The translations under genes and the position numbers were made by a program. From positions 1-53,729 of the forward strand of contig CANRAS010000013.1 of assembly GCA_947628655.1 (NCBI GenBank): a stretch of 53,729 nucleotides of DNA, read 5' to 3'. Within the stretch, counting starts at the first letter, position 1. Each line of letters begins with the position of its first letter. The notes under the pieces were generated by a model. That model saw only the letters and a list, made by a program, of their open reading frames with translations. It was not told where the DNA came from and did no database searches. Of the stretch, positions 28,524 through 35,314 are shown piece by piece. The stretch comes from an uncultured Clostridia bacterium. GTDB lineage: Bacteria; Bacillota; Clostridia; Oscillospirales; Ruminococcaceae.

Positions 28524-28902
28524 TTAACCGTTCCCCGCTGACGGCGGGGAATCCGCAAGTTGTTTTTCACAAAACGCTTTCAAAACCGGAATGTCGTTTA
28601 CCACAACTTCCCATACAAAAGATTTGTCCATTCCTATGTATTCGTGCGCAAAGCGATTTCTCATTGCGCGCATATCTTTCCACGGAATTTCAGTGTTATG
28701 CTTTTCCTTAAATTCATCGCTTAAATGTCCCGTCAGTTCTCCGATTTGAAGTTCAGCCATACTTACAGCATTATAATAATATGAAATTACTTTCAAAAAC
28801 ATCTTTGTCCTTGCCGAAGAAAGACAAACACGCGTCAATTTGTTTACAATATTCCAACATATGGGAAATAATGTTCAAATCTCTTTCTGATGATGTTATC
28901 AT
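28524..28902 (-). pseudogene. hepT: HepT-like HEPN toxin (DUF86), frameshifted
   Basis: Reading from ATG 28902, which overlaps the mntA stop as ATGA, the protein begins MITSSERDLNIISHMLEYC and runs 43 codons to a TAA at 28771-28773. The rest of the HepT fold (YYYNAVSMAELQIGEL, then the HEPN RNase motif RNRFAHEY) continues in another frame. One surplus base, probably in the TATTATTAT stretch near 28775-28785, accounts for the break. HepT is the toxin inactivated by MntA. The gene is either dead, slippage-corrected, or contains a sequencing error. Confidence 0.78.
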
Positions 28903-29663: not shown

Positions 29664-30008
29664 TTATTCCTCGCCCGCGCCGTCAAGTTCTTCCAAATCT
29701 TCGTCGTATACCTCTTTCGCAAGTTCGGAAAAGCGTTTGAGGAACATCTCGCCGACGCGCTCGTACTCGCTGTCGTCGTCCACGGTGGCAAGCATTTCCT
29801 CGCCGTCTTGCTTTACTTCTTTCAGCACGACAAATTCGGCGTTTCCGTCGCCGTCCTCGTCGTAATCTTCGGGAATTAACGCGTAATATACAGTACCGTC
29901 CATTTCGGCGCGGTCAACAAACTCAAAGCGCGAAACGTTTCCGTCCTCGTCCTCAAGTTCGATAATGCCCTCTTCCTCGTCAAGATAAGCGTTCTCGCTT
30001 TCGCCCAT
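29664..30008 (-). CDS. DUF1292 (YrzB-like) acidic protein
   Basis: 114 residues, extremely acidic. Beta-rich DUF1292 pattern: IIELEDEDGNVSRFEFVDRAEMDGTVYY, ALIPEDYDEDGDG, EFVVLKEV. In Firmicutes such genes usually lie with alaS-linked yrzL/yrrK; here it stands alone. Function unknown. ATG 30008 after AAAGGAG. Confidence 0.88.
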   Translation of the reverse strand: MGESENAYLDEEEGIIELEDEDGNVSRFEFVDRAEMDGTVYYALIPEDYDEDGDGNAEFVVLKEVKQDGEEMLATVDDDSEYERVGEMFLKRFSELAKEVYDEDLEELDGAGEE

Positions 30009-30096: not shown

Positions 30097-30213
30097 GAGG
30101 TAATTTTTCAAAAACAAGCCAAATTCCGCTATTTCGCCGTATAATCATTACTTTACCCAAAAAAGCGTTTGAAAATATATACAAATTCACAACAAGAAAT
30201 TTAAAAATTTCTA

Positions 30214-30242
30214 TTGACTTTGACGAAAGTTTGTGGTATTAT
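30214..30242 (+). promoter_or_regulatory. Promoter of the large ncRNA
   Basis: TTGACT, exactly 17 bp, TATTAT, then ATATTTAAGG. The implied start is near 30249. The gene upstream is divergent, so this promoter serves only the ncRNA region. Confidence 0.82.
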
Positions 30243-30248
30243 ATATTT

Positions 30249-30945
30249 AAGGAAAGAGAAACCCGAAGTCAAGCCGAGAGGTCGGTACGGGAAACGCTCT
30301 TCCGAATATCTTCACAAGGAGAAAGGTCCGATGGAAAGTTAAGTTTCAACTCAAACTTAATAGGTGCGCGAAAATAAAAGCGCAGGTTTTCCGAATGAAA
30401 AGGAGCAGTCCGATGGGTTGTTGAGTTTCCTGGAAGATTAAATCTCAAACGAAAGGCAGGCGAATTCCGATGGAAATTGAACCTTCTTTGAAATCGTCTG
30501 CGGGGTCGCCGAACGCTTACCGCTGAGGTGAATTTTAGGACGATGATTTGCACGAAAGTTGATGAGCTTTCAAAAGTGCAAAATCCGTTGATGTAAAGTG
30601 CTTAAACTTGATTTTAAACCGCACGGTTACGTTCACTCCGCAGATTTTCGGTATCAATATCTTCCGTTTAGCTAAAGTGTCACTTGATACTTCGGTGCAT
30701 ACCATTAAATTGAAGATGATTGATGTTTTCCGCTTAACGCGTTTACATAGATAAGCCATAATGAAAGTGGTGGTCGAGATGTGCGAGTTAATTATTAAGG
30801 CAGGAAAATTCTAGCAGGAGGTTAAGTCCGATGTCCGATAAAATTTGCTCTAACCACAAATTTTAACAAGGAGAACGGTCCAATGTAATACCGAAGTTAT
30901 ATACAATTGAATAAATATCGCCCCCCGCGTGACCCGCGGGGGGTT
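30249..30945 (+). ncRNA. Large, highly structured non-coding RNA of about 700 nt
   Basis: No credible ORF exists on either strand, yet the segment has a consensus promoter, is free of the repeats filling other gaps, and carries many exact helices. Examples: CCGA/TCGG inside CCCG/CGGG (30262-30291); TTAAGTTT/AAACTTAA (30339-30360); TGCGC/GCGCA (30365-30384); TTTGCAC-GAAAG/CTTTC-AAAA-GTGCAAA (30547-30582); long-range TCTGCGG/CCGCAGA (30497-30503 with 30638-30644); GTATCAA/TTGATAC (30651-30690); AAAATTTG/CAAATTTT (30840-30864). A module of AAGGAG or similar, 3-6 nt, then TCCGATG recurs at 30316, 30400, 30453, 30815 and 30868. Size and intricacy recall ROOL, GOLLD or OLE RNAs, but I cannot assign a family. 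Confidence 0.8.
30921..30943 (+). terminator. GC-rich hairpin, possible 3' end of the large ncRNA
   Basis: CCCCCCGCG pairs with CGCGGGGGG around TGACC. The following TTGTCAGTTT is a weak U-tract, and the hairpin may equally be the first palindrome of the adjoining repeat cluster, so the exact 3' end is uncertain. Confidence 0.5.
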
Positions 30946-30946
30946 G

Positions 30947-31190
30947 TCAGTTTATAGTTGAAAGTGTTGAGTGCATAGTATAGATAGAGTTGCGCCCTTG
31001 CGGGCGCTTATTAGATTGTATTTAAGTCAAGGCGTTGTTCGCCTGCGGTGTGGTATCCAATGCGTACTCCCCGCCATAGGCGGGGTATTTTCGCATAGCT
31101 TTCTCCCCCGCCGCAGGCGCGGGAGAAAGCCTTTACTGTGCGCTTTGCACAGCGTTTTCCGCGAAACGGTTAATGCGTTAACTTTAAACT
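30947..31190. repeat. Intergenic palindromic repeat cluster
   Basis: GTTGCGCCCTTGCGGGCGC hairpin, TTAGATTGTATTTAAGTCAA, CCCCGCCATAGGCGGGG, a GCTTTCTCCCGC/GCGGGAGAAAGC palindrome and the CAGCGTTTTCCGCGAAACGG module, up to the antiporter stop codon. The last palindromes may terminate the antiporter transcript. Confidence 0.72.
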
Positions 31191-34497: not shown

Positions 34498-34620
34498 AAA
34501 CAGAGTAGAAAATCGCGCGTTAAGTGCCGACCGAACGGAGAGTTGTCGGGCGGACGAAAAGCACTCGATGTCGCCTTTGAGCGACTTCGGGCTTGCGATG
34601 CGGTTTTCGCATCTCGCTGT
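34498..34620 (+). promoter_or_regulatory. Tetrahydrofolate (THF) riboswitch
   Basis: Conserved THF aptamer blocks in order: CAGAGTAG, CGCGTTAAGTGCC, ACGGAGAGTTGTCGG, GGACGAAAAGC, and a closing CGCTGT that pairs with ACAG at the start. It lies directly before a folate-type ECF S component, the usual target. Folate sufficiency should reduce expression of the transporter. Confidence 0.9.
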
Positions 34621-34661
34621 ACATAATAGAATAAAGTCATATTTATTCCGCTTGTATAGCG

Positions 34662-34694
34662 AAAAAGTCACGGGAGGAATGATTATGACTTTTT
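34662..34694 (+). promoter_or_regulatory. Hairpin presenting the folT ribosome binding site and start codon
   Basis: AAAAAGTCA (34662-34670) pairs exactly with TGACTTTTT (34686-34694). The loop holds GGGAGG and the ATG 34685 sits at the stem edge. It probably couples the THF riboswitch to translation. Confidence 0.6.
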
Positions 34695-35314
34695 TTGCTA
34701 ACTTCAAAAAATCGGCTTTAGAACTTAAAAGCCTGCGCTGTCTATGCGTTACGGCTATACTGATAGCGTTGGATTTAGTGCTGAAAAGCGTTACTATTAA
34801 TGTGACGAAGGATTTAAAAATCACGTTCGCGTTTCTCGCTTTAGCGTCAATCGGAATGTTGTTCGGACCTGTTGTCGCGTTTCTCGCGGGAACTGTTACC
34901 GACATAGTAGGGCTTATGATTTCCCAGCAGATGAGCGCGTTCAACCCGCTGTTCACGCTTGTTGAGGCAATCGGCGCGATGATATACGGAATTTTCCTGT
35001 ACGGACTGCATATCAGACCCTGCGCGGACGGGAAGTTCGCTGCAAAAGGCGACATAAAGCAGATACTGCGGATAATTTTCGCGAAAGTCACGGTGGTTAT
35101 CATCTGCAATCTGATACTCACCCCGCTCGCGCAAATCGCGTCAAACTCGATGGAGGCGGGAATGTTCCTCTACGAACCGACGATAGCGAAATACCCCGCA
35201 CGCCTTATCAAAAACGCGATACAATGCCCTGTTGACTGCGTACTGCTGATTGCGGTACTGCCGATTATACTTACTGCTTACAATAGGGTATTTAAGGTTC
35301 GGAAAGCGAGTTAG
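34685..35314 (+). CDS. folT: ECF transporter S component, folate family
   Basis: 209 residues, six hydrophobic helices. The pattern CVTAILIALDLVLKSVTI, then KITFAFLALASIGMLFGPVVAFLAGTVTDIVG and the ending ARLIKNAIQCPVDCVLL fits FolT-type S components that bind folate and use a shared ECF energising module, encoded elsewhere. The THF riboswitch upstream supports the substrate. Start ATG 34685, seven bases after GGGAGG; the earlier ATG at 34679 is too close. Confidence 0.9.
   Translation: MTFFANFKKSALELKSLRCLCVTAILIALDLVLKSVTINVTKDLKITFAFLALASIGMLFGPVVAFLAGTVTDIVGLMISQQMSAFNPLFTLVEAIGAMIYGIFLYGLHIRPCADGKFAAKGDIKQILRIIFAKVTVVIICNLILTPLAQIASNSMEAGMFLYEPTIAKYPARLIKNAIQCPVDCVLLIAVLPIILTAYNRVFKVRKAS

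Follow-up and report, generated by a model that had tools for sequence, protein, structure and literature searches.

A conserved array of tiny genes suggests a clostridial RNA that engages ribosomes rather than making protein

The DNA analysed here (the window, 53,729 nucleotides from an uncultured Clostridia bacterium) contains on its forward strand an RNA of about 698 nt, running from promoter to terminator (30250..30945), that carries an array of tiny genes; this array suggests an RNA engaging ribosomes rather than making protein. Six start codons in the RNA are preceded by Shine-Dalgarno (SD) sequences and, as judged by comparison of homologues, the starts, frames and early stops are retained while the predicted peptides drift. 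The RNA, conserved in uncultured bacteria of the gut, is matched in 41 of the 43 genomes of its genus.

Three of the six sites in the window copy, all on the forward strand, are minigenes of 1-3 codons: m1 (30331..30342; ATG GAA AGT TAA, MES-stop, with the SD AAGGAG at 30316-30321), m2 (30413..30424; ATG GGT TGT TGA, MGC-stop, with the SD AAGGAG at 30400-30405) and m7 (30883..30888), a bare start-stop (ATG TAA) behind the SD AAGGAG at 30868-30873. The other three are ORFs of 11-18 codons, namely m3 (30470..30526; MEIEPSLKSSAGSPNAYR followed by a stop, 18 codons, with GAAAGG upstream at 30451-30456), m5 (30779..30814; MCELIIKAGKF-stop, 11 codons, with GGTG at 30769-30772) and m6 (30831..30866; MSDKICSNHKF-stop, 11 codons, with the SD AGGAGG at 30816-30821). 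All but m5 have the spacer TCCR-ATG. None of the six sites appears when ORFs are listed from 60 residues up, and the statement in the first-pass annotation that the segment has no coding capacity does not hold, since SD-preceded starts with short in-frame stops are conserved at all six.

Conservation was counted in 41 complete RNAs, leaving out L027, which is partial and lies at a contig end, and L088, which comes from the G018 genome already represented by L013. m3, m6 and m7 are found in all 41 homologues, m1 in 28 (not found in 13 under a search filter of at most 6 codons), m2 in 37 (missed in 4 with that filter; where an early site stood alone it was labelled m2) and m5 in 37, where it starts with ATG in 35 and GTG in 2. 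The length of m3 is 16-23 codons in 41 of 41 copies, with ATG as the start in 37 and GTG in 4; for m6, 30 copies have 11-12 codons, ten have 2-3 and a single one has 7. m7 opens at most 3 codons in every copy and is a bare ATG-stop in 35, all three stop codons occurring across the homologues. The longest exception to an early stop is the m5 of L030, with 33 codons, and one unfiltered early site has 28. The features of a lambda bar-type minigene (conserved SD and start, and a stop within a few codons) are combined in m1, m2 and m7, and the second codons of the minigenes vary among homologues.

For m7, a stop falls within 3 codons in 41 of 41 copies, against 7 and 1 in the shifted frames. When the early sites (those 5' of m3) were picked by SD and CCNATG without a length filter, 59 of 66 proved to be at most 3 codons long in frame 0, compared with 4 in frame +1 and 7 in frame +2; the baseline for a stop within 3 codons at any offset of these RNAs is 15.4%. 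None of the 37 m3 sites from an unfiltered search is as short as 3 codons, indicating that the ORF lengths are specific to the site. On the RNA tree, the identity of the stop changed with the early stop retained 4 times in m3, 8 in m5, 7 in m6 and 3 in m7, and also 7 times in m1 and 10 in m2, where the retention is partly by construction because both were picked with the filter of at most 6 codons. Changes of the start codon on the same tree are exchanges of ATG and GTG only, one in m3 and two in m5.

The spacer is also distinctive. Among 133 distinct upstream stretches, T occupies position -4 in 90%, a purine position -6 in 100% and G position -5 in 59%; CC at -3,-2 was required by the search behind these statistics; of the 197 SD genes predicted in 400 kb of the same genome, 3 have it. 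Two pairings that might account for the spacer were tried and rejected. Where the spacer is ACC rather than UCC, the SD is altered correspondingly in two copies only (by eye), which argues against pairing of the UCC with the GGA of its own SD; the bases before UCC do not fit an extended pairing with the 16S tail (GGATCACCTCCTTTC, from two genomes of the order). The 16S search found none in the window genome and in six of its seven sister genomes, and a partial one in the seventh. Nor does prediction set the sites apart as more open: the mean unpaired probability is 0.400 both for them and for the remainder of the RNA, and it is higher at the sites in 22 of 41.

The peptides of the sites, by contrast with their starts and stops, appear from codon-position counts in the genus homologues to have little or no amino-acid conservation. 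Differences at codon positions 1/2/3 amount to 126/131/133 in m5 and 249/285/230 in m6 (three m6 starts being misplaced in this count), and neither shows a third-position excess. The corresponding numbers for m3 are 436/487/580, and this excess makes some peptide constraint possible there; a SAES..SA-like pattern is retained in m3 in much of the genus, and the m3-like ORF of a second genus of the family (g28) has an SQSVE- or SQQSVE-like pattern in many of 11 loci. Codon-level conservation, named at the outset as a sign against a structured non-coding RNA, is therefore found in part, with little or none for amino acids but retention of start codons, reading frames and early stops.

The transcription unit is well delimited. 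The promoter recognised in the first-pass annotation, TTGACT (30214-30219) and TATTAT (30237-30242) separated by 17 nt (30214..30242, forward strand), is present and its columns are strongly conserved; transcription would start at 30250. A terminator hairpin (30921..30943, forward strand) is indicated by the sequence and by the comparison of homologues, since all 41 complete homologues have a GC-rich hairpin 3' of the RNA, and in 39 of them at least four T follow within 10 nt of the terminator-like hairpin. Just 5' of it is a conserved element, ACAATTGAATA (30903..30913, forward strand), also present in G137 and G417, two genomes of other genera. No family of Rfam 15 is matched at the gathering threshold in the RNA region, the sole match of that level in the window being a THF riboswitch at 34499, and a scan of 30150-31150 at E<=10 returned Spd-sr37, sR46 and anti-hemB, each far under its own threshold. 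Thirteen related loci gave no Rfam matches beyond tRNA, THF riboswitch and 6S. A discrete unit from promoter to terminator, with no Rfam family at threshold and nearly universal in its genus, supports the early suggestion of a new class of large RNA. Folded as a single sequence the RNA has z = -2.83, with 0 of 20 shuffles equally low; when the terminator is removed, z = -1.89 and 2 of 20 shuffles are equally low.

For the analysis of structure, 29 of the 41 RNAs were aligned (A1), and 26 of those formed a second alignment (A2) from which L008, L009 and L016, with long insertions, were omitted. In these three the 5' part of the RNA has a GC-rich insertion of about 150-300 nt, 5' of m1. RNAalifold on A2 gives 41 pairs, 13 of them with a kept change on both sides. 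The covariation test took 26 pairs in five helices, leaving out 15 pairs (three helices and the terminator). Compared with shuffles that ignore relatedness, and for helices chosen from the prediction on the same alignment, 96.3% of cells are paired in the five helices (92.6% shuffled), 35 cells are changed on both strands (14.5 in shuffles) and the covariation score is 0.253 (0.185, sd 0.008, shuffled; 0.020-0.082 in slid controls), while further pair types are not above the shuffles (22 vs 21.2; 178/500). Most of this comes from one hairpin between m3 and m5 (GACG..TTTGCAC / GTGCAAAATCCGTT; 30539..30589, forward strand), in which 7 of 10 pairs changed on both sides and into which 7 of 8 pairs with both-side change fall. 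The "at least seven helices" counted earlier from a single sequence are not borne out across homologues, covariation coming mainly from this hairpin.

The long-range pairing of TCTGCGG (30497..30503, within m3) with CCGCAGA (30638..30644), both on the forward strand and also noted in the first reading, exists: its six-pair core is retained in 97.4% of cells over 26 homologues, and the flanking pair is G-C in 13, A-U in 11, G-U in 11 and unpaired in 6 of 41 homologues. Because the core hardly varies, covariation is unable to prove this helix. As one of its strands lies inside m3, translation of m3 and formation of the helix would be mutually exclusive. Further 3', the alignment and the prediction point to a conserved element, GCGTTTACATAGATA (30739..30753, forward strand), with CCGC upstream at 30730-30733 (CGC/GCG pair); GCGTTTA was read by eye in 10 of 11 RNA stretches of g28. 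An insertion of 70-odd nt (30649..30722, limits approximate, forward strand) lies on the 3' side of the long-range helix, ahead of the GCGTTTACATA element, and is absent from the close relatives L002-L005. Another hairpin, AAAATTTG/CAAATTTT (30840..30864, forward strand), lies between the start of m6 and the SD of m7. Most copies have it by prediction, with altered sequence (three copies being cut short by a misplaced m6); it is not found in that form in L016, L084 and L086, and is yielded by RNAalifold on A2, whereas A1 gives zero pairs in the 3' third.

The RNA seems to be possessed by nearly all members of the genus. By DNA search, 37 of 61 genomes have a match, the window's own included, the rows outside the genus (G045, G052) being only 28-30 nt long. 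The genus-wide model, a sequence-only model made from the 3' third of the RNA without base pairs, matches 41 of 43 genus genomes and 27 of 27 of good quality, at one place per genome except in G029, which has a second weak match (E 0.004). The two genomes without a model match are G031, with the partial copy L027 at a contig end, and G062, in which none was found. A 3'-end pattern recovered 25 stretches from genome records, 22 of them with an m6-like site immediately 5' and 21 also with the GCGTTTACATA-type motif; those 22 records are titled as MAGs, either of Oscillospiraceae or of uncultured Clostridia, and a number of them come from the colon of deer and from rabbit (our reading of 'Lapin'). 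Phage and plasmid records gave no match to the RNA, and the window has no tRNA genes.

The divergent neighbour in the window is a DUF1292 gene (PF06949, by profile match; 29664..30008, reverse strand). This gene adjoins the RNA in 38 of 42 genus loci, with divergent orientation in 28 of 28 loci where the promoter expression matched, and was not found in the other four, the distant L083, L084, L085 and L087, which by eye have an apparent reversed tRNA gene upstream. Among 20 neighbourhoods compared, at most 3 have any one downstream gene family in common. Elsewhere in the window, a gene with a HepT-like ribonuclease domain lies at 28524-28838 (reverse strand), and the THF riboswitch (34499-34621, 81.5 bits) is at the start of a gene for an ECF transporter S component (34568-35314).

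Counterparts are also found beyond the genus. In g28, 11 of 40 genomes match by DNA search, among them the single-contig genome G150, and all 11 loci have a GAGTCC-ATG ORF of 16-20 codons together with a divergent DUF1292; the last site is no longer than 3 codons in 10 of the 11 loci (MY-, MT-, MC- or MYK-stop) and has five in L179. A site search in these 11 loci found m3- and m7-like sites and no counterparts of m1, m2 and m6, indicating that the number of sites is not fixed. Genome G137 of a further genus (g26) has a DUF1292 neighbour and tandem MY-, MR- and MT-stop sites. RNAs beside a divergent DUF1292 in other genera are likely orthologues with fewer sites.

We suggest, giving the proposal roughly an even chance, that the minigene-array RNA acts via ribosome loading and titrates initiating ribosomes or initiator tRNA. 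Each of the six sites would take an initiating ribosome with initiator tRNA, translation would end within 0-20 codons, and the ribosome would then be held, cycled or re-initiated at the site. With ribosomes held or cycled at each site, one RNA would tie up several of them; most likely the function would be exerted via the recruited ribosomes and not via the peptides. Titration would require a high abundance of the RNA, and the structured part between m3 and m5 probably folds according to the translation state of m3. Predicted translation of the six sites is supported by comparison, and ribosome loading, high RNA abundance and the titration effect are what we infer. More tentatively, we would place this RNA in an undescribed class of bacterial RNA, in which start-stop minigenes form an array with the dedicated spacer (A)GUCCR-AUG and ribosome occupancy would itself be the product, serving as a brake or gauge on initiation. 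Records of the proposed class come from several families of one order (titled Clostridia).

Alternatively, the RNA might be a sensor of ribosome occupancy, in which the minigenes would monitor how initiation or termination is proceeding (under antibiotics or release-factor shortage, for example) and pausing of ribosomes on m3 or m7 would switch the central fold, the RNA then acting in trans or through its terminator. We regard this as somewhat unlikely. In its favour, m3 holds one strand of a near-invariant long-range helix, there is a parallel in toiL, described in PMC12121999 as a uORF that senses ribosome-targeting antibiotics, and single MGR-stop sites do occur 5' of ordinary genes in L074 and L075. 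However, a terminator hairpin of its own closes the RNA, and no downstream family is common to more than 3 of 20 neighbourhoods; hence no common cis target is visible. An mRNA for several micropeptides (m3, m5 and m6), with the tiny ORFs serving coupling or stability, is improbable: the m3 patterns in both genera and the third-position excess of m3 fit it, but m5 and m6 lack such an excess, m6 has just 2-3 codons in ten copies, and the one-residue product of m7 is hardly a functional peptide, yet m7 occurs in 41 of 41 homologues.

Two other readings are less likely still. CsrB and CsrC are sponges whose repeated GGA sites sequester CsrA, and the RNA could likewise sequester CsrA or another SD-binding protein, GGA being repeated here too in AAGGA-type motifs and the CsrA family (PF02599) being present in the window's genome. 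This is very improbable, since each GGA here is part of an SD with ATG and stop, a sponge would not need the ATG, the frame or the stop, and CsrA, found in 15 of 19 genus genomes, was not found in G002, G005, G007 and G010 (96-99% complete), all of which carry the RNA. Most improbable of all is an ornate structured RNA of the ROOL, GOLLD or OLE type, which the length, the long-range helix and the covarying hairpin would suit. These three are described in PMC12286853 as large bacterial RNAs of unknown function with profiles in Rfam, ROOL and GOLLD being phage- or prophage-encoded and elaborate in structure, and GOLLD binding ribosomes in pull-downs. None of them is listed for the RNA at the gathering threshold or among the E<=10 matches in 30150-31150. 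ROOL and GOLLD often lie by tRNA islands, and the window has no tRNA gene. The minigene-array RNA is instead chromosomal beside DUF1292 and built around start codons, with no match in phage and plasmid records, and its structure is modest, with zero RNAalifold pairs in the 3' third of A1 and a long-range core that hardly varies; the divergent ROOL/GOLLD-like RNA considered in the first-pass annotation is accordingly disfavoured.

The reading by ribosome loading has partial parallels. In the bar minigenes of phage lambda, as here, a ribosome site and a start are followed at once, or nearly so, by a stop. Titles of work on them cite inhibition of protein synthesis and tRNA starvation (PMC8012679). 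However, those are phage minigenes, whereas the present ones form a conserved chromosomal array with varying second codons, so that no one tRNA seems to be targeted. toiL, as described in PMC12121999, resembles the present RNA in coupling a short ORF (here with predicted translation) to RNA structure, but lies 5' of the gene it controls, while the RNA described here has its own terminator and no widely shared downstream gene. The Arabidopsis NIP5;1 leader has an AUG-stop ORF comparable to the bare start-stop of m7, but it is described as a eukaryotic 5' leader acting on its main ORF (PMC5972666). No description of an RNA like the present one was among the literature matches listed, most subscription journals lying outside their scope. 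If ribosomes load as predicted, this natural RNA would have ribosome occupancy as its output and would help in studying how the pool of initiating ribosomes is set in cells. For annotation it is a warning, as the RNA is missing from Rfam and its sites are invisible to 60-residue ORF lists.

Broader pattern searches extended the survey to the order and the class. The pattern GTCCRATGTACTAA was found at 15 places in 14 of 394 order genomes, against 4 for the reversed control; by eye, 13 of the 15 appear to be intergenic and to have an SD, and the other two seem chance-like. A longer pattern gave four matches in 391 class genomes, three in this order and one chance-like, and zero control matches. 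Candidates rejected by eye as chance-like matches are L036, L038, L040, the viral L056 and L168, all inside ordinary genes, and likewise L104 and L107. Tandem copies of the same site type are found in several RNAs outside the genus. In L074 and L075, both from G355, the single MGR-stop site just 5' of an ordinary-looking gene resembles a leader ORF. The RNAs of L108, L109 and L110, just downstream of an apparent rlmH (by eye), open with ATG TAC TAA and have further on, at apparently the same site, GTG TAG, GTG TGA and GTG TAA. A THF riboswitch is also found near the tandem-site RNA of L068, and a 6S RNA is no more than about 1 kb away from the tandem start-stop RNAs of L114 (2517-2726), L116 (2542-2752) and L073 (661-856), which belong to two families.
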